27,305 nt of DNA from a virus. The notes below the pieces were generated by a model. The model worked only from the letters and a program-made list of their open reading frames with translations. It was not told the DNA's origin and did no database searches. The stretch is from positions 1 through 27,305 of the IMG/VR virus record IMGVR_UViG_3300023198_000945. One strand, 5' to 3'. This document shows, piece after piece, positions 4,820 to 27,305 of this stretch (its first letter is position 1; the number at the start of each line of letters is the position of its first letter). Both the position numbers and the translations under genes were made by a program.

Positions 4820-5806
4820 ATGAGTCGAGCCGCTAAGTCTAAGCTTGTATTGGATGCTGTCAGGAGGTTTACACATCTACCTGACAGAACTATAGCAAGA
4901 CACTTGCTCAATCAACATAAAGGGTTGTTTGATAATGATCTTGAGAAGATTAGAAGTAGTGTCCGGTATTACAGAGGCAAGAATGGAGAAAAGAGTCGAG
5001 CAACTGCCGAGAAGAAACACTCCGGATTATTCACAGGTGGTCCTGTTAAACTTCCCGAAACCTGGAGACTGACACGAACCAATTACGACCTGCCTCCTGG
5101 GTTATGGTTGATACTGTCTGATATTCACATGCCGTTTCACGAAAGAGTAGCACTTGAGGCGGCCGTACAGGCGGGACAGGCAGAGAAGGTTGACGGGATA
5201 TTACTCAACGGAGACGCCTGGGACTGCGAGGCTTTGACGTTTTGGCCCACAGCTCACAGGGATTTCAACAAGGAATTGGAAGACTTTATCGATTTTCTGG
5301 ATTGGTTGAAGCTACAGTTTCCAACACAGAAGATCGTGTTTAAACCCGGGAATCATGAATTCAGACTTCCGAGGTATTTTATCACGCACGCTCCTGAACT
5401 CGCCCAGAGTCCAGTAGCTTCTATGGAGACGGTATTGGGATTTGAGAAACGCGGTATTGAATTCCTTGACTATTTCCAGATCATCAACGCAGGCAAACTT
5501 CCTATTATTCACGGCCATGAAGTCCCGGCTATTATCCGTTGTGTTAATCCCGCGAGAGGATTGTTTTTGAGAACCAAGACATTCTCCGCGTGTTCGCACT
5601 GCCACAGCACATCGGAACATTCTCCCAAGAACATCCATGACGAATTGTTAACCACCTGGAGTTTCGGGTGCTTGTGCGATCTCCATCCGGAGTATTCGCC
5701 GTATGGTAACGATTGGAATTGGGGCTTTGCCTTTGTGAATGTGGAGAAGAACGGGGATTTTGAGGTTTTGAACCGCAGGATTTTACCTAATGGAAAGGTG
5801 GTATAA
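4820..5806 (+). CDS. Calcineurin-like metallophosphoesterase
   Basis: A 328-residue enzyme with the full metallophosphoesterase motif set: SDIH (Asp101, His103), GDAWD (Asp132, Asp135), GNHE (178-180), HGHE (231-234) and SHCH (260-262). These coordinate two metals and hydrolyse phosphate esters; the substrate cannot be told from sequence. Residues 8-50 look like a helix-turn-helix-type DNA-binding region. GAAAGGA before the ATG (4808-4814) acts as ribosome site. The 105-base gap upstream holds only a weak promoter-like pair (TTGAAT 4725-4730, TAGATA 4748-4753). The MazZ-like gene follows two bases after the stop, which hints at joint work on nucleotides or DNA. Confidence 0.92.
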   Translation: MSRAAKSKLVLDAVRRFTHLPDRTIARHLLNQHKGLFDNDLEKIRSSVRYYRGKNGEKSRATAEKKHSGLFTGGPVKLPETWRLTRTNYDLPPGLWLILSDIHMPFHERVALEAAVQAGQAEKVDGILLNGDAWDCEALTFWPTAHRDFNKELEDFIDFLDWLKLQFPTQKIVFKPGNHEFRLPRYFITHAPELAQSPVASMETVLGFEKRGIEFLDYFQIINAGKLPIIHGHEVPAIIRCVNPARGLFLRTKTFSACSHCHSTSEHSPKNIHDELLTTWSFGCLCDLHPEYSPYGNDWNWGFAFVNVEKNGDFEVLNRRILPNGKVV

Positions 5807-12744: not shown

Positions 12745-13089
12745 TTATATCTCCTTTTTCCAGGCTGTTGCGAATTTAGTGTAACCTAATCGTTTCAAAT
12801 AGAGTTCTAAAGTGTCGTCTGGAGCGAATCCTATTACCGTGGCTGCTCCGAGTTCTTTCAGCTTATTCACGCATGTTTTTTCGAGACGGGCGCCTACGGT
12901 ACTACCTCTGTGTGCAGGCGCTACCCAGCTGCCTTCAAGATGAGGAAGCTGAACGATAGCCATGCGACCAATAACTTTGTCGTCGTCATCCACAGCGACA
13001 GCTACGAGAGAGTTGTCCGGAGTGAAACCGGCACCGTCTATGCCGTCGAGTTTGTGGTATTCATTCGGTTCTAGGAATTTTATTTTCAT
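12745..13089 (-). CDS. GNAT-fold acetyltransferase-like protein
   Basis: A 114-residue protein. The motif-A region WVAPAHRGSTVGARLEKTCV (55-74) matches the acetyl-CoA loop (Arg61, Gly62, Gly66), and YLKRLGYTKFATAWKKE (97-113) is the usual GNAT end. It is shorter than most GNATs (140-160 residues), mainly missing N-terminal helices. The substrate is unknown. Its ATG overlaps the upstream stop (ATGA) and it has no good ribosome site, so it depends on coupling. Being inside the virion operon suggests modification of a phage structural or delivered protein. Confidence 0.75.
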   Translation of the reverse strand: MKIKFLEPNEYHKLDGIDGAGFTPDNSLVAVAVDDDDKVIGRMAIVQLPHLEGSWVAPAHRGSTVGARLEKTCVNKLKELGAATVIGFAPDDTLELYLKRLGYTKFATAWKKEI

Positions 13090-17206: not shown

Positions 17207-18439
17207 CTATCCTGCAACCCTGCAAGCGAGTTGAGGATAAAGGACAGTCCATCCATACAGGACGTCCAGCCTGCAGATGAACCTGTCATAGATGATATCG
17301 TACTGGCGAACAAGTCTCATGCTCATACCGAGCTGCTTGTCGCTCATACGACCGGCCATATCCACGCCGCGAGGCAACGGAAGATCAGCCATACCGAGAC
17401 AGAAAGCGTCACGATGGAATACCATGTTCTGAGGGCTCTGGGTCGAAGCAGCTCCCAAGAACGTGAGAGCATCGCCATCAACAGGATATGCGCTGATGGT
17501 AGCTTTCGCGTGAGTGGCGATATACATCGGAGGCGCGATAGAAAGCGTCGCGTACCCAGAAGCATCGGCCGTGGCTAATGCGGTACATACAAACTTCCGC
17601 AGTTTGCCTGTGGACTGACGGCTCTGAGGATTGACAGCATACACGGTGGCTATTGTGAAGATGTCGCCATCTGCAATAGTACCGGTGGAGGCGGTCATGC
17701 CCTCAACAACGAGTGTTGCCTGGCCAGCGGTCGAAACCGTGGTTCTGACTTCAACACTTGAACCCAGGTCATTACCCGTGGTATGAACACGAGCATTCTG
17801 GTCCATCTGCCATTCTAAACCGACAGCGGTTCCCATACGACCGGATTTGTACTGCTTGCTGATCTCGTTGCTGGACTGAAACAGACCCTTTAAGGAGTCT
17901 ATGATTTCAATCTGTGCGTCGGGGTTGATAACGGCAGATCTCAGTCCGTCCATAGGACAGGCTTCATCGTCCAGGGCGCCGTTTGCCTGGAGATAGGTTT
18001 TCAGATCGCTTGGGGTTGTCCCAGGCGTACCCACGGCATTGTACACATCTTTGTACAGCGCCATTCCGTCGTAGTCTATCTTGTTGGCGATAGTCGATAC
18101 GGCGGGTTGCAGGATTCTCTGGCTGAAGTCGTCAATACTCAGAGCGAGCTCAACAGAGGTGAAGGAGATATCGACACCGAACTGGGTGCCGAGTGTCAAC
18201 GTCACATAATCCTCATCGGTGTTCTCGAACGAGGATATCGTAGCACCGGATCTTCCGATGTACTTGGGCGGTTTACGGATATTGAGAGCGGTACCGATTT
18301 TGGCACCCTCTACAGCGAACTTGTCATCATACTGACGATTGACGAGCTTGGCAAACCGCAGGTTGTTCTCAAGAACACGCAGGGCTTCCCGCGTGATCAT
18401 GGTTATGGTGAGAAGGTCATTGGTTGGATTGCTAACCAT
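17207..18439 (-). CDS. Major coat protein, P22 gp5-like
   Basis: A 410-residue protein (P22 coat is 430). It opens with NDLLTITMITREALRVLENN and has the FENTDEDYVTLTLGTQFGVD segment of the P22 coat family. The inserted-domain region near 235-310 contains GDIFTIATVYAVNPQSRQST, which is conserved in this family. The C-terminal part (DLPLPRGVDMAGRMSDKQLG, then YDIIYDRFICRLDVLYGW) matches too. GAGG lies about nine bases before the ATG. It forms the capsid lattice with the upstream scaffold. Confidence 0.93.
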   Translation of the reverse strand: MVSNPTNDLLTITMITREALRVLENNLRFAKLVNRQYDDKFAVEGAKIGTALNIRKPPKYIGRSGATISSFENTDEDYVTLTLGTQFGVDISFTSVELALSIDDFSQRILQPAVSTIANKIDYDGMALYKDVYNAVGTPGTTPSDLKTYLQANGALDDEACPMDGLRSAVINPDAQIEIIDSLKGLFQSSNEISKQYKSGRMGTAVGLEWQMDQNARVHTTGNDLGSSVEVRTTVSTAGQATLVVEGMTASTGTIADGDIFTIATVYAVNPQSRQSTGKLRKFVCTALATADASGYATLSIAPPMYIATHAKATISAYPVDGDALTFLGAASTQSPQNMVFHRDAFCLGMADLPLPRGVDMAGRMSDKQLGMSMRLVRQYDIIYDRFICRLDVLYGWTVLYPQLACRVAG

Positions 18440-20458: not shown

Positions 20459-22810
20459 TTATAGTTGAAGTTCGTCCGGTCGTAGTTCGAGATCGGATGA
20501 CATATCCGGCTCTACGGCTGCGGCAACAGCCCCGGGCTGAACTGGTTGTGGTTCGCCGGTGATAGGGGGAGTAGCTTCAGGCTCGTTTACGGAGCTTATG
20601 CTTGCCTGAGCTGGAGCTATCCCTTGTTCGGCCTCGAATTTAGATAATATATCGAGACGCTGTCCTATAGTCTGTATCTCGCTTCTGAGTATTTCGACAC
20701 CCTCAGCACTTCTGAGTTTGGCTTCAGTTACGAGAAGTTCGGTTTTGGCATTGAGTCCAGCGATACGCTCCTTAGAAGCGATTTCGAGAACCTTACCATC
20801 ACGCTCGTCAGTGAGTTTATTGACAAGTTCCGTAAGAGCTTCATGCTGCTGCATGAGTTGTTGCATTTCAGCCTGGACTTGGGGCGGAATCTTGGGTTTT
20901 TCTTCTCCCTCTTCAGGCTCCTGAAGTTCTGGCGGCAACATCTTGTGAATACGATCTGCAATCTTGTCAGCCAGAGGCCAGTCCATAGACTTGACCATAA
21001 GATCGCCGGCAACCTGAGCGAACTGGGGATAATTGCGCGTGAGCTCTACCATAGATGCTGCGGCTTCCTGGCGCCGTGTTGTGTATGAAGGTCCGACGAT
21101 AACAGCGACATCATATTCACCAACACCGAGATCATAAATCCTGTCTGCGGCTTTTACGTCGTCCTGGGGCTGTTCAAGCTCAGGAACACCCGGGTTAAGA
21201 GACGACTGTAGATGTACCATCTCTTCTTTCTGATCAACTCCGATAATACGCTCAATACGAGGAGTATCGTAAACATACGGGATGAGATCTACCAGGATAC
21301 GTCCAGTGTGGCGTATAGATCGTGTTAGATTGTCTATCAGGTGGAAATTGGCAACATCACCTTCGCGCTGTCGTGCCAGGATGGCTCTACCGGATGTCTC
21401 ATTGCCCTGAGCCCCAACACTCGCATCATATAACCCTGTTGTAGCCTTGAGATCGTCTGCAGCCTGGGCTCTCGATAATGCCGTAGCCTGAATAGGCGGC
21501 TCGCTGGAGAGCTTACTCGGGGGCGGTACAGGCTTCCCTTCAATAGAACTCGCCTTGTAGGGCAGATAGGCTCTGTTTTTGGTGTTGAGATCCTTCCAGA
21601 ACTCGTCGACTCCCTTTAACTGACCAACCTCAATCAAGAACGGGGCTTTAGGCGCCAGAGCAATCATCTCTGTTTGAGCTGATGTCCAGTAGTTATAGGC
21701 ACGCTGAGGATCTTTTGCGTACCGCACAACTCCGCTGAGTCGACGTTTCCCGTCTGATATAAGCTCTTCACCAAGCACCGGGATGAGCGGAATAAACTTA
21801 CCTTTGTAATCCTGGCGCTCTTCCAAAACTTTCTTGGCATTAAACTTGGCCCAGCGCACTTTTTCGACTTTTAAACGTCGTGTAATGGTGTATTCGGTTG
21901 AAGCCTCTTCTTCCGTGAGCTCGTCTTCGTATTTTTCGGTATCGTCAGCAAGCTTGACCAGAACCTTATCGATTTTTTCTTTATACCAGTATTCAGCAAC
22001 CCTGATATTCTTCTCTGTGATCCAGTCTTGGACGTTGTCTCCGGATGAGTGGAATCTGGTCAGCCCGGCAGCTTCTGCATCTTCACCGAATTCCTCTTTA
22101 TACTCCTCGTGTGTATAGTCCTCGACAACAAACGCCCATTGAATATCGCTACCATCAGGCTCTTCAAAAAAAGGATCGCAATAGACAGTAAAAGGGTTAA
22201 GGACGCGCTTGATAACAAGTTTCTGTTTTGATGTCTTGTCATCAGCGTAGACATTCAGCACTCTCAACCAACCAGGTCCACCAGTAGCTGCGGCGAAATC
22301 AAATGCGGTATCATAAGCTGTGTCGGCGTTATCGTATTCAATACTGCGAATAAGGCCCTCAACTATCTCTGCTGTTTTCTTGTCGGCGTGCTCTCCCATC
22401 GGTGTAACGTGTATCGACGGGCGGTTTTGGCGCTCATCATTTGTAATCTGGCGAATGAACTGGGGAATCCTGTTTACAGTCAAGCAAGGTCGTTTATCGA
22501 TCTCGCGTTGGGTTCTGATATCGGTAGGCCATTGGTCTCCGAGTCTGAATCGCATATCCTCTGCGGACAGGGCTCTCTGCTCTTCCCAGTTTTCTGCAGA
22601 GATCTTCTGACGTCTGATGGCGAGTTCCAGGAAATCTTTGAGCTGTTGCTCGGTTCTCCTCTTGACCCCGCCTTCGAGATCCTCCGGAGAGAACTCTTCT
22701 TTCTTATCCTCACCCATGTAAGTGGAGGCCGGAGGTGTTGGAAGCTGTGGTGTCTGCTGTGCTTCAGCTCCAGGTGCGATGAATAATTCGTTACCCATAT
22801 TCGTTGACAT
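20459..22810 (-). CDS. Portal protein, P22 gp1-like
   Basis: A 783-residue protein (P22 portal is 725). It has DMRFRLGDQWP (85-95), RPCLTVNRIPQFIRQI (107-122) and RQNRPSIHVTP (130), all typical of the P22 portal family, then the AFDFAAATGGPGWLRV segment. The C-terminal 200 residues are Gln/Glu-rich and helical, as expected for a portal barrel. It forms the dodecameric ring through which DNA is packaged and ejected. AGAGG precedes the ATG. The 966-residue gene ends eight bases upstream. Confidence 0.94.
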   Translation of the reverse strand: MSTNMGNELFIAPGAEAQQTPQLPTPPASTYMGEDKKEEFSPEDLEGGVKRRTEQQLKDFLELAIRRQKISAENWEEQRALSAEDMRFRLGDQWPTDIRTQREIDKRPCLTVNRIPQFIRQITNDERQNRPSIHVTPMGEHADKKTAEIVEGLIRSIEYDNADTAYDTAFDFAAATGGPGWLRVLNVYADDKTSKQKLVIKRVLNPFTVYCDPFFEEPDGSDIQWAFVVEDYTHEEYKEEFGEDAEAAGLTRFHSSGDNVQDWITEKNIRVAEYWYKEKIDKVLVKLADDTEKYEDELTEEEASTEYTITRRLKVEKVRWAKFNAKKVLEERQDYKGKFIPLIPVLGEELISDGKRRLSGVVRYAKDPQRAYNYWTSAQTEMIALAPKAPFLIEVGQLKGVDEFWKDLNTKNRAYLPYKASSIEGKPVPPPSKLSSEPPIQATALSRAQAADDLKATTGLYDASVGAQGNETSGRAILARQREGDVANFHLIDNLTRSIRHTGRILVDLIPYVYDTPRIERIIGVDQKEEMVHLQSSLNPGVPELEQPQDDVKAADRIYDLGVGEYDVAVIVGPSYTTRRQEAAASMVELTRNYPQFAQVAGDLMVKSMDWPLADKIADRIHKMLPPELQEPEEGEEKPKIPPQVQAEMQQLMQQHEALTELVNKLTDERDGKVLEIASKERIAGLNAKTELLVTEAKLRSAEGVEILRSEIQTIGQRLDILSKFEAEQGIAPAQASISSVNEPEATPPITGEPQPVQPGAVAAAVEPDMSSDLELRPDELQL

Positions 22811-22818
22811 AAATGCCT

Positions 22819-25719
22819 CTATAATTTCGATTTCGGATTAGGTGCGTATTGTCGTGTGCTCTGGCTACCACCGGATGTGTCGGGAGGGTTTGCGGCCTCA
22901 TCAGCTTCGATTTCTTTTAGTTTACGCCGGATACTGTTAACCCCTCTACCAAAACCTCTTGCGAGTTGTGTAGTGACATTAGAGAAATAAAATCTGATCG
23001 GATTCTGGTAGGCTTTCTCTAAAGCAAATAGGGACCTGAGCTGAGCATCTGTCGGATTGCCGAATAGTTCAACTATTACAGTCTCCTGTGGGCTTTTGCG
23101 TGTTAGTACTCTCACCAGTCCACGTTCCTGTGCCAGTGAGGGGTAGTTATCAAACGCCTGCTTCTCGGGTATCTTGAGAGCCTTGGCGAGAGATGCTTCA
23201 TGACTCGTGACGTTGATAGCGGTGCCGTCCTCAGTCAACCAGCCTCGTGTGAGTTTCGCCGGGTCTTTTGTAACTGTGCCGAGTGTTGAGGGCTTTATTT
23301 TAACGGCTGCTGCAGGAGCGAGGGCTGCAGGGGCTCCACCGCTTCCGCTACTTCTTCCACCTTTTCCCTGGAATTTGGCCCACTCTTCTGGAGCATATCG
23401 CTCGAATCCTTCTCTGATCCACTGTTCAATCTTGGGTTTAAGAGTACTGTCCAACTCTCTGATATCCTTGGATCGCCCGGCTTTATCCAGCCTCTTGATA
23501 TAACTTTCGCCACTTTGATACCTCTTGTTTTTCCATGTGTTAGCTGCGGTTTGCAGTTCTGTACCGAACCAGTCTGTGTATATCTCATCTTTTAGTTTAA
23601 ATTCGTCAGCTATTTTACCGACTGTAGCTTCTATCTCTTTAAATCTAGCAGACGACCACGCGGGATCTTTTGGGCTGGTTTCAATCAATCTAATCGCAGG
23701 TCTGCCCCCTACCTGTACCGAAGAAGCCCCTTCAAGAGACGGGTCTAGTTCAATTAGTCTTTTGTGGAACTTCGTAAAAGCGCCTCTGTTATTTAATTTT
23801 TCAGGGAGTATTATATCCATGCCGGTGGCTAGTTGCTGCTTACCCTTAACGACTCTCGTAACTCCAGCTCTCGACTTTGCGGGACCCATCACGTCTCTTA
23901 CTGCCGGCCCAACTCTAGCCCGAATCCGATATCCCATCATGTAATCTTGCTGAGCGTAATAACCGACAGCGTTGATAAACTCATGCACAGATTCAGGTGT
24001 ACCAAACACTTCTACTGACTTACTCGGATTAACTTTACCTCCCCAAGCCCCGGGTTTCATGAATCCACCCAAAACCCTAATTCCTATTTTCGGGCCGAGC
24101 ACATTCATAATGTTCGTCAGAACTTCATTTGTTATGGACTCGTTGGCTTTGTAGTCTAATTTATGCAAGTCCGGGAATATCTTGGAATAAGGTGACTTGT
24201 TACCGAAAGCCAGCTCGGTAGGTATAGTTGATACATTGTGGCGCATCATCAATTCAGGAGACTCATAGGCATACCCGAATTTCTTACGCATCGCAGCCCA
24301 GAGAGCCGCTTGCATTTGATCCGGTGTCCAGTCGCTTTTGCCTCCTATCTTTAGTCTATTTGCTTCAGGGACTGCCTCATTCAGCTGTTTCGTAATCAAC
24401 TCATACTGAGCTTCGGAAGGAACTCCGGTCTTGTTATCTTGCTTGAGACCTTTTGTGGCTTTTTTGCCGAACCTCTTTTCGAGGAATTTTAAATAGGTCT
24501 TATCTAAAAATCCTGCGAGTCGCAACATGTGAACATCAATAGGAGTCGGGCCTCCGTATTTTGGGTCATCCCCCATGATGCTGCGCGTAGTCTTCCCGAA
24601 TGCTGCGTCTAGGAAATCAGATAGCTTGGCTCTAATACCGGCTTTCGGTACTTGCTCTTTGAGAGCAGCTTTTACCGCAGGTGCATTAAGTCCAGCCTGT
24701 TTAGGCTCATGCAATCCAGCTAACTGACGCTCCGCTATCAGCATGTTAGTCACTCCGCGTCTCGGAGCTTCATTAAGCTGTGTCAAACTCCATGCAGCCA
24801 GTCTCGTAGAGGCGTCGTCTATCCCGACATATTTCTCGAACACCGGACGAAGCTCTGAATAAAACCTAGCCGCTTCCTGTATCTCGGCATCTGAACCATA
24901 TTCCTTTATCATTCTCATATAATCTTTAGTCGATTGAGGACCAACAGGAAATTCTCCTGTACCGTCATTGAGATAGTGCCTGCTGTTGGAATGTTTCTGG
25001 AATGGAGTCTTCCGCGCTTTTGTTCTGCGTATTCTCTCTCCAGGACGCTGTAGTGGCTCGACATTGTCCCAGTATTTCTTTAGAGCATTGCCGGCATATT
25101 TCCAATCAGGAAACATAGCGTCTGTGTTGAGAAATCCACCCTCTTCTGCTAATCCTCTCGGACCAAATCCCTCACGAGCAGCCCCCTGAAGTTTCTTGGC
25201 TCCAGATATCACACCTGGAGACACTGCAGCTAAACCGAGAGTGAGATTAATAATCCCTTTGGGATAATTGCCTTCTTCAAACCCGTCTATACCGTGCTTG
25301 ATCATGGGAATGCCGAAACCAACACCGGCAAGGCGCCCGAGCTTGCGTGGCAGCGCGGCAGCGGCGCCTATAGTACCGATAGCCAGTGGTGTGGTCATTC
25401 CTATTGCAATATTGTCAACCTCGTCCATGAGCTGCTTCATGGCATTTGGTTTATTCGGGTCAAGAGTGGCAGCGAGTTGGGGATTACGCGCCATGTAAAC
25501 GTCCCAGGAGGATCTCCCGGGCTTGATCAGAGGTGTAGTGAGGAATTCCCCTATCTGACCGAGACGAGATCCACCTGCTGATGTCGTACTGGTGGGCAAT
25601 GTACCACCAATCTCAGCCGCCGACAGCCTGGAGGAGTCCAAAGGCTTCTGCACGTTGGGCGAGAATGTCCTACCACCTTGACGAATCAGCTCGGATAAAC
25701 TCAGTGTAGGCTCTGGCAT
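22819..25719 (-). CDS. Large multi-region protein upstream of the portal
   Basis: A 966-residue protein with no confident family. N-terminal 100 residues are low complexity and polar. Two Ala/Gly-rich hydrophobic stretches (about 104-140 and 157-173) could cross or disturb membranes. Residues about 290-485 form one conserved-looking domain: RLAAWSLTQLNEAPRRGVTN (306-325), PTPIDVHMLRLAGF (391-404) and QAALWAAMRKKFGY (470-483). The IDVH part recalls the VDTH of HhH-GPD DNA glycosylases, a weak resemblance. A Ser/Gly/Ala linker lies near 785-805. AGGGA precedes the ATG, and the start overlaps the radical-SAM stop by one base. It may be an injected or polyvalent-type protein. Confidence 0.8.
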   Translation of the reverse strand: MPEPTLSLSELIRQGGRTFSPNVQKPLDSSRLSAAEIGGTLPTSTTSAGGSRLGQIGEFLTTPLIKPGRSSWDVYMARNPQLAATLDPNKPNAMKQLMDEVDNIAIGMTTPLAIGTIGAAAALPRKLGRLAGVGFGIPMIKHGIDGFEEGNYPKGIINLTLGLAAVSPGVISGAKKLQGAAREGFGPRGLAEEGGFLNTDAMFPDWKYAGNALKKYWDNVEPLQRPGERIRRTKARKTPFQKHSNSRHYLNDGTGEFPVGPQSTKDYMRMIKEYGSDAEIQEAARFYSELRPVFEKYVGIDDASTRLAAWSLTQLNEAPRRGVTNMLIAERQLAGLHEPKQAGLNAPAVKAALKEQVPKAGIRAKLSDFLDAAFGKTTRSIMGDDPKYGGPTPIDVHMLRLAGFLDKTYLKFLEKRFGKKATKGLKQDNKTGVPSEAQYELITKQLNEAVPEANRLKIGGKSDWTPDQMQAALWAAMRKKFGYAYESPELMMRHNVSTIPTELAFGNKSPYSKIFPDLHKLDYKANESITNEVLTNIMNVLGPKIGIRVLGGFMKPGAWGGKVNPSKSVEVFGTPESVHEFINAVGYYAQQDYMMGYRIRARVGPAVRDVMGPAKSRAGVTRVVKGKQQLATGMDIILPEKLNNRGAFTKFHKRLIELDPSLEGASSVQVGGRPAIRLIETSPKDPAWSSARFKEIEATVGKIADEFKLKDEIYTDWFGTELQTAANTWKNKRYQSGESYIKRLDKAGRSKDIRELDSTLKPKIEQWIREGFERYAPEEWAKFQGKGGRSSGSGGAPAALAPAAAVKIKPSTLGTVTKDPAKLTRGWLTEDGTAINVTSHEASLAKALKIPEKQAFDNYPSLAQERGLVRVLTRKSPQETVIVELFGNPTDAQLRSLFALEKAYQNPIRFYFSNVTTQLARGFGRGVNSIRRKLKEIEADEAANPPDTSGGSQSTRQYAPNPKSKL

Positions 25720-27284
25720 TATTTATTCCCTTTCAACGGAAATTCAATCACTTCACCAAGTTGTCGAGATTTTCTGCCGCGTTCTACTGCAGCATTCCAG
25801 ATTTGATTGGTTACGCTGTTCGGATCTTTTGAGTCTAATACAGAACCTATGCTAAAAGGTCTCTGAACTGTCGGCGGTTTAACAGCAGGCTGCGATATAT
25901 TACTGAACGGCTGCTGACCTTGTCTACTGACAGGAGGCTGTTGATTAATAAAGTCTACATTGCGCTGATAATTCCTGCCGGCTCGCGGTAATCTCGGCTG
26001 TACCGGAGGAGGATCGAGTGATTTACTCGACCAGTCGAACAGCTCATCCGAAAACGTCTCGTGGATTTTAGGGTCCGGCATCCAGGATTTCTGAAGCACG
26101 TTCTGATCTATATCAGCCGCTGTAGCTGCTTTCAAAGATTTGCTTAAATCGGTATCATCGAATACAGCCAAGTTGTAAATATTGTTGTGAGATATCACAT
26201 CTTTGTTGTTGTCGAGCCAGCGTGATGTATTGCGATACGTGTCTGCTGTCTCGCCAGGCAACCCGATCATGACATTCGGTACCAGCTTGGCGTCAGTCAT
26301 CCTGATCTTGTCCGCCGCCTCGTCCAGCAGCTTCATGTTCGACGGTTTCCGCAGGCTTTTGAGAATCGGGTCATTGGCACTTTCAACACCGAGCTCGATA
26401 TACTTGATCCCAGACCCGTTGATAAACTCCGGTGACAACTTCTTCATTTGCGCTGGGGATGTCTGTACAATAAACCCCTGGAAGTCTGGATTCTGAGACT
26501 TCATACGATCATAGATATCAGGCAGCAGCTTGTGATTCTTGGCCTGACCGAATGTCTTGTCGTTCAGATACACGAGAGGACTTGGAAGATCCTTTGCAAT
26601 AGCGTCAGCCTGCTGCATAATACCTTTTTTACCCATTTCTGTAACACTTCCCCCTAAATTACAGAAAGTACAGCTATGCAGACACCCTGTACTAAGGCAG
26701 AGTCGTGGAACAGTTTTGGTACCCTTGAAATTCTTATAGTTATTCCCAGCCTGGAATTTGAAACCAGTGTCTTCAACCATGTCTTTAACATTGTCATAAG
26801 CCTTTACGTTGTCCATTTTCTTGAACATACCGAGATTTCCGCCGTACCCCCCGATACTAAACTTACCGGGCGAGCTCTCTACGAGCTTCTTAGCGAAGTT
26901 TTTATTCACGTCCAACACCGACATCGCGGTATTACCGTATCCGGCGTCATTCATGAACTTGATAGCTTCATCGAGATCCCGCACGACATACGTGTCAGCG
27001 TTTTTAACACTGTTCGCGATCTGAGTCTGCCAATCCGGTAATTCCCAGAAGTCTGCCGGTCTGTTATAACCAGGACGGCTCTGGTACAGCTTGTCAAAAT
27101 ACTGAGTCGCCTTATCCGTCGCCTTTCGAGACCCGGGATTCAACAAGTCATCTGAAAACTGCACCATCAGAGTGCGATCTGAATTACTCGAAACAGCTCC
27201 AGGTTGATCAGCTCCTCTCACCCAGATATTACGGTCAGTACTGGTCGGGGTGCCTCTTGAAGCATTCTTGGCAGTCACGCCCAT
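25719..27284 (-). CDS. Radical SAM protein with Pro/Gln-rich tail (start may lie outside window)
   Basis: At least 521 residues. The cluster motif is CLHSCTFC (Cys201, Cys205, Cys208), followed by VYLNDKTFG (238-246), YIELGVESAND (295-305) and VPNVMIGLPGET (335-346), the standard SAM-binding and core strands of radical SAM enzymes. Residues about 100-190 include KFSIGGYGG and could be a reduced B12-binding-type Rossmann domain (inference). Residues 424-475 are Pro/Gln-rich, unlike an enzyme. The substrate is unknown. The ATG at 27284 has no ribosome site and the frame stays open to the window edge, so the true start may be upstream. It is coupled by one base to the 966-residue gene. Confidence 0.88.
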   Translation of the reverse strand: MGVTAKNASRGTPTSTDRNIWVRGADQPGAVSSNSDRTLMVQFSDDLLNPGSRKATDKATQYFDKLYQSRPGYNRPADFWELPDWQTQIANSVKNADTYVVRDLDEAIKFMNDAGYGNTAMSVLDVNKNFAKKLVESSPGKFSIGGYGGNLGMFKKMDNVKAYDNVKDMVEDTGFKFQAGNNYKNFKGTKTVPRLCLSTGCLHSCTFCNLGGSVTEMGKKGIMQQADAIAKDLPSPLVYLNDKTFGQAKNHKLLPDIYDRMKSQNPDFQGFIVQTSPAQMKKLSPEFINGSGIKYIELGVESANDPILKSLRKPSNMKLLDEAADKIRMTDAKLVPNVMIGLPGETADTYRNTSRWLDNNKDVISHNNIYNLAVFDDTDLSKSLKAATAADIDQNVLQKSWMPDPKIHETFSDELFDWSSKSLDPPPVQPRLPRAGRNYQRNVDFINQQPPVSRQGQQPFSNISQPAVKPPTVQRPFSIGSVLDSKDPNSVTNQIWNAAVERGRKSRQLGEVIEFPLKGNK

Positions 27285-27305
27285 GTCATATGTCCGCGTA
27301 GGCGA

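Follow-up and report, generated by a model that had tools for sequence, protein, structure and literature searches.

A radical SAM domain upstream of the portal gene of a P22-like phage, probably part of a polyvalent protein with a coupled OGG-like glycosylase piece

The window analyzed here, i.e., the whole stretch of DNA under study, is a linear virus fragment of 27,305 bases, which ends in an open reading frame for a radical SAM protein. This reading frame is probably the C-terminal, radical SAM portion of a phage polyvalent protein, which together with a translationally coupled piece carrying an OGG-like domain would be injected into the host and act on nucleic acid. The reading builds on the fold and motifs of the radical SAM domain, its polyvalent relatives, a recurrent linkage to a glycosylase, and a position in the late operon with a stop-start overlap. 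The radical SAM gene and its elements are the following:

25719..27305, minus strand: radical SAM cistron, its 5' end cut by the contig end (open frame, homology beyond the ATG, no Shine-Dalgarno sequence)
27279..27305, minus strand: SPTRTYDMG, encoded in frame over the called ATG and continuing P..TY..[GA], a motif conserved ahead of the domain in giant homologues
26715..27197, minus strand: N-terminal Rossmann-like (B12-fold-like) domain, about residues 30-190 (family alignment; AlphaFold2 model; VIA-align matches to AprD4, MgmA and CysS)
26214..26696, minus strand: Radical_SAM core, residues 197-357 (Pfam PF04055, E 4.7e-7, passing the Pfam gathering cut-off)
26661..26684, minus strand: CxxxCxxC cluster-binding motif, residues 201-208, invariant in 37 of 37 family rows
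26544..26564, minus strand: NDKTFGQ, residues 241-247, a family signature in invariant alignment columns
25833..25982, minus strand: Pro/Gln-rich disordered linker, about residues 435-484 (pLDDT under 50)

The open reading frame was confirmed at 25719-27284 on the minus strand and its product (P0001) comprises 521 residues, with cysteines only at positions 196, 201, 205 and 208. The last three constitute the CxxxCxxC motif and are all found in each of the 37 aligned family rows, i.e., the cluster cysteines and motifs are intact, as an earlier note on this DNA had claimed. An AlphaFold2 model, obtained with 37 aligned sequences, has pLDDT values of ~90-98 over most of residues 30-420, and the radical SAM core, the integrity of which the earlier note had left to structure prediction, is unbroken. 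The closest solved structures found with VIA-align are those of AprD4 (Z 23.1), MgmA (22.5), CysS (21.4) and MiaB (~20), at sequence identities of 12-15%, and a Foldseek run with the model likewise points to radical SAM structures. Matches to NCBIfam profiles were all far below threshold; the best was of PhpK type (2.9e-12), followed by a lipid-biosynthesis B12/radical SAM family and MiaB/RimO, a class of enzymes with an N-terminal Rossmann-like domain. A sequence search of the PDB matched RimO and TM_1862. The features that define the radical SAM superfamily, i.e., CxxxCxxC and a partial TIM-barrel core, are thus seen in the Pfam match, the motif, the model and the Z scores of up to 23. Judged by its motifs and predicted fold, the domain is catalytically intact, and it should bind a [4Fe-4S] cluster and SAM.

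With AprD4, MgmA, CysS, PhpK and MiaB/RimO the protein shares the fold over about residues 30-430 and the CxxxCxxC core, but it has its own sequences WELPxW, conserved together with GGY in the N-terminal Rossmann-like domain across the 37-row family alignment, and NDKTFGQ, and it lacks DxHxxG and a second cysteine cluster. The best NCBIfam score for a cobalamin-dependent radical SAM methyltransferase reached 45.7 bits where 600 are required, and a role of cobalamin is unsupported, because the DxHxxG cobalamin motif is absent from the P0001 sequence. Nor is an auxiliary cluster indicated, because C196 is the sole cysteine outside CxxxCxxC. Identity as a methylthiotransferase of the MiaB/RimO type was rejected, since the N-terminal domain has no second three-cysteine cluster.

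Translation probably does not begin at the ATG at 27284, because the reading frame is open up to base 27305, i.e., the window edge, the ATG is not preceded by a Shine-Dalgarno sequence (a Shine-Dalgarno-like stretch is found before the other late genes examined), and homology continues upstream, where SPTRTYD stands before the called start. Very likely, as judged from these sequence features, the gene extends beyond the contig end and 25719-27284 represents no more than its 3' part. A contig search, from which near-identical records may have been withheld, found no near-identical contig that would prolong the window at its 5' end. The earlier note had taken 27284 as the gene start and the gene as an isolated new type; both points give way to a longer, probably polyvalent, protein that is present here only with its end. 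The Pro/Gln-rich tail described in the same note is real and predicted to be disordered, but it looks like an ordinary inter-domain linker rather than a tail of virion type.

Single-sequence searches of viral_contigs with P0001, the 966-residue open reading frame located next to it or the portal protein returned no relatives, and the family was reached only via a two-sequence alignment of P0001 and a distant radical SAM protein encoded on a Mesorhizobium plasmid. With this alignment, 40 loci were found in viral_contigs, with homology over most of the domain and best-segment identities of 32-52%. After removal of near-copies, the domain resides inside a larger open reading frame at 28 loci and in a stand-alone frame of 392-549 residues at 8 loci. 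The larger frames comprise 710 residues, up to the contig end, in L010 and 1514-4379 residues in the others, some of which are also cut by contig ends. Forty columns are invariant in the 37 rows of the family, including the cluster cysteines, WELPxW-type residues, GGY and NDKTFGQ, and the window protein nests among the giants, in a clade with L010, L046, L012, L011 and L029 (support 98/92). In one of the giants (L043:2793-14453), a stretch similar to the beginning of an ADP-ribosyltransferase domain (FYRGSKGG...) splits the radical SAM domain near the IGLPGE motif, and this copy, being interrupted by an insertion, may be inactivated or rebuilt.

The family was detected at no more than two loci in 84,980 species genomes, for which reason a host-operon family was rejected; the concern raised in the earlier note, that homologues might be found only in host operons, is not borne out. 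One locus is a Planctomycetia MAG contig, where the domain is part of a 2538-residue protein (L130:5731-13347) with an insertion of ~115 residues between the N-terminal and core parts. The other is a Neptuniibacter MAG contig with a stand-alone gene and a DUF7178 gene 0.9 kb downstream. As far as these searches go, the family is mainly virus-borne and not a host operon enzyme. In the collection of curated phages the matches were weak, and no isolate phage of that collection was seen with the family; the matches set aside were an MnmL-like gene, the contig of which also carries bacterial housekeeping genes, and, with a homologue as query, MiaB-like genes.

Polyvalent proteins have been defined as combining disparate activities in several domains, and it has been proposed that they are packaged and enter the host along with the DNA (PMC5512222). 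The radical SAM homologues resemble them in being very large, in combining several unrelated domains, and in residing near virion or packaging genes. The Pfam domains identified among the giants are ART-PolyVal (5 of 16), GNAT (4 of 16), LPD38 (3 of 16) and LPD22 (1 of 16), as well as NUDIX, histidine phosphatase and HATPase; the L012:4452-12845 giant also has a DnaJ-type CXXCXGXG zinc domain at residues 2312-2378. Several disparate domains are thus found on a single large polypeptide in the giants, whereas the window protein differs from the described class in being split over at least two cistrons and only partly present, with its second enzymatic domain in the coupled cistron. Pfam matched none of its polyvalent-associated domains in the two window cistrons, of which the radical SAM gene lacks its 5' part. 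A further difference is that neither radical SAM nor a DNA glycosylase is named in the main text of PMC5512222; radical SAM is likewise absent from the main texts of PMC9503650 and of PMC7824862, a survey of jumbo phages. Polyvalent proteins are therefore known, but a radical SAM member was not found in the literature searched.

The most consistent partner of the radical SAM domain is DUF7178. A gene of this type is present in all nine records with a stand-alone radical SAM gene. In seven of these (L041, L042, L045, L047, L048, L049 and L131) it is found within ~2.1 kb on the same strand, in L040 it is located 5 kb away on the opposite strand (detected with a custom profile only), and in L031 it resides elsewhere in the 343-kb record, away from the radical SAM gene. 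The domain was also identified in 15 of the 28 larger radical SAM proteins, C-terminal to the radical SAM domain in all 15; it was not detected in the other 13, about half of which are cut by contig ends. With PF23802, the Pfam family of DUF7178, alone, matches were found in 19 of 37 radical SAM records versus 1 of 40 P22-portal records, a contrast that is somewhat inflated because the former are on average longer than these controls. The lone portal record with PF23802 has a 4682-residue giant without a radical SAM domain. In L132:4924-18972 (the record of L058), from a P22-like phage with a coat protein 59% identical to that of the window, a 4682-residue protein has DUF7178 at about residues 1577-1921 and no radical SAM domain.

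The DUF7178 family profile matches the archaeal Ogg proteins 3fhf and 3knt, which are 8-oxoguanine glycosylase/lyases, at ~1e-5, and a Lys and an Asp are invariant in 30 of 30 rows, usually with a spacing of 18-20 residues. This spacing is the one expected for bifunctional HhH-GPD glycosylases. On the basis of profile and residues, DUF7178 is an OGG-like DNA glycosylase family. A literature search for DUF7178 gave no match; the domain is found in phage records H55-H84, which include SIO1 gp9, cyanophage 9515-10a gp9, Lentibacter phages and mycobacteriophage Kimona, and which are mostly annotated as hypothetical, one of them as N-glycosylase/DNA lyase. DUF7178 without radical SAM is common in other phages, and a reciprocal search revealed no radical SAM gene within 8 kb at the non-seed DUF7178 loci, i.e., the dependence runs one way. 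The glycosylase needs no radical SAM protein, while the radical SAM protein is usually accompanied by the glycosylase. Such a one-way pairing fits a radical SAM enzyme that acts on, or prepares, the substrate of the glycosylase.

In the window, the corresponding domain is found in the coupled cistron:

22819..25719, minus strand: 966-residue protein (P966), second piece of the module, an orphan in the family and phage searches
24220..24948, minus strand: divergent DUF7178/OGG-like HhH-GPD domain, about residues 258-500, with putative catalytic K365 and D395 (profile, Lys/Asp invariance, VIA-align 2)
22984..23286, minus strand: C-terminal module, residues 812-912 of P966, common to the L010 protein after its radical SAM domain (BLASTP E 7e-7, phmmer 2e-7)

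Residues 266-484 of P966 matched a profile built without P966 at 29.3 bits (E 1.2e-7), whereas 2000 shuffles scored no higher than 7.9 bits and 1340 control proteins no higher than 4.9 bits; with a profile of the stand-alone DUF7178 members only, the match is weak (13.3 bits, E 0.0068). An AlphaFold2 model of the domain has a pLDDT of 70 and a pTM of 0.68. With this model, Foldseek gave no significant match (best E 0.4), and the top rows in VIA-align 2 were MjaOgg, TmOgg, SsOgg, hOGG1 and EndoIII, with Z scores from 6.8 to 5.0, i.e., below 8. Z scores of this size are no proof on their own, but combined with the independent profile match they support the assignment as a glycosylase. The domain resembles OGG2-type 8-oxoguanine DNA glycosylase/AP lyases and DUF7178 in its profile match, its top structural rows and the invariant Lys and Asp, retained as Lys365 and Asp395, but differs in being divergent, in the spacing of 30 residues between the two, and in its location within a 966-residue protein of a virion operon.

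That the radical SAM enzyme would act on nucleic acid is suggested not by its own sequence but by its conserved partner, the OGG-like DNA glycosylase. The modification of the capsid that the earlier note had envisaged finds no support. It seems somewhat doubtful that the virion-delivered radical SAM protein is instead an effector with a host protein, tRNA or a small molecule as its substrate, and with the OGG-like domain as a separate effector that merely travels along. Polyvalent proteins do mix unrelated activities, ART-PolyVal and GNAT, which are thought to hijack the host, co-occur with the radical SAM domain, and the enzymes with the nearest structures (MgmA, RimO, MiaB and AprD4) have proteins, tRNA or small molecules as substrates. 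However, outside polyvalent proteins the stand-alone radical SAM genes keep DUF7178, within ~2 kb in seven of nine cases and in the same record in all nine, which weakens this explanation because mere co-travel does not predict such a neighbor.

The genetic surroundings of the giants bear on whether the proteins are packaged. Genes upstream of the giants match terminase, major head, tail, tail-fiber, internal virion protein and endolysin families, and a phrog_2 terminase was detected in four viral records, in all of which the giant gene is located downstream on the same strand (coordinates converted by hand). Neighboring portal, terminase or virion genes, as described for polyvalent proteins, are seen in the window and in L010 as well. 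Because the radical SAM homologues are domains of polyvalent proteins, an association with the virion is likely, in agreement with the earlier note. It is rather unlikely that the enzyme is encoded late but left unpackaged, acting before packaging on the phage DNA or its precursors inside the cell that produces the phage, e.g., in base modification, so that its place in the operon would be a matter of timing. Stand-alone homologues have neighbors without an obvious virion role, and a packaged [4Fe-4S] enzyme would meet oxygen, both of which favor such a scenario. Most homologues, however, are domains of giant polyvalent proteins, the class argued to be packaged (PMC5512222), and these giants adjoin head, tail, terminase and internal virion genes.

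The setting of the two cistrons in the window is defined by these elements:

25717..25721, minus strand: TAATG stop-start overlap of the radical SAM cistron and the 966-residue cistron (1 base), read from the sequence
20459..22810, minus strand: P22-type portal protein (Pfam P22_portal, E 9e-172)
17207..18439, minus strand: P22-type coat protein (Pfam, 1.9e-38; phrog_283, 6.9e-80)

The radical SAM reading frame is collinear with the 966-residue frame, the portal gene begins 8 bases past the latter, and scaffold, coat and adaptor genes follow. The gene is therefore found where the earlier note had placed it, i.e., with overlapping codons and in the same direction in a virion operon, before the portal. 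Portal, scaffold, coat and adaptor are in the same order as in the P22 late operon, from which the window differs by the radical SAM and 966-residue cistrons upstream of the portal. Further enzymes encoded in the window are a GNAT acetyltransferase (12745-13089), inside the late operon and adjoining a DNA-ejection-like gene, and a calcineurin-like phosphoesterase (4820-5806) in the early region. The terminase is off the contig in the window; in the related P22-like phages inspected, the portal gene is located directly or closely downstream of the terminase. In the independent contig L010, genes for the small and large terminase subunits are followed by a 181-residue open reading frame and then by the radical SAM gene, and the large subunit is ~40-50% identical to those of the P22-like relatives. 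This large subunit is encoded in two pieces (L010:3338-6011) with a 156-residue open reading frame between them, an arrangement suggestive of an intron- or homing-type insertion; the terminase is apparently split in L051 and L058 as well.

A radical SAM gene was found in none of 46 related P22-like records, i.e., the insertion is rare in this lineage and the gene is as unusual at this site as had been suggested. The codon usage and GC content of the radical SAM frame are inside the spread of the other late genes. That the frame is a chance-captured auxiliary metabolic gene or a chimeric assembly, unrelated to virion proteins, is highly improbable: its absence from the 46 relatives and its position at the contig end would suit such an origin, but L010 independently joins a P22-like terminase to a radical SAM polyvalent gene and encodes a protein that shares a module with the 966-residue protein, the two window cistrons are coupled by TAATG, codon use is within the late-gene range, and the 84,980 genomes hold no host-operon family.

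According to the preferred reading, that of an injected polyvalent protein with a coupled glycosylase piece, the radical SAM gene of a P22-like podovirus would sit between the packaging genes, i.e., the terminase off the contig, and the portal gene, and the translationally coupled 966-residue piece would carry the divergent OGG-like (DUF7178) glycosylase domain. Both proteins would be synthesized alongside the head proteins, enter the head, and be ejected into the host together with the DNA. There, the [4Fe-4S] cluster of the radical SAM protein would be loaded and a 5'-deoxyadenosyl radical formed, such that a nucleic-acid or nucleotide substrate could be modified, while the glycosylase/lyase domain would recognize or remove particular bases. 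Together they would process bases, to repair or protect the phage DNA on its entry or to attack the DNA of the host. A tentative, more far-reaching proposal is that phages package and inject a radical SAM enzyme that works jointly with an OGG-type glycosylase domain, either in favor of the entering genome, the bases of which would be edited, repaired or protected, or to the detriment of host DNA.

If this reading is correct, an oxygen-sensitive Fe-S radical enzyme would be present in the first minutes of infection, and radical chemistry on nucleic acids delivered by the virion would be previously undescribed. The pairing of radical SAM and OGG-like domains offers a concrete handle on the substrate, which would be DNA or nucleotides. 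At the same time DUF7178, a family without an assigned function in well-studied marine podoviruses, gains a fold and likely catalytic residues.
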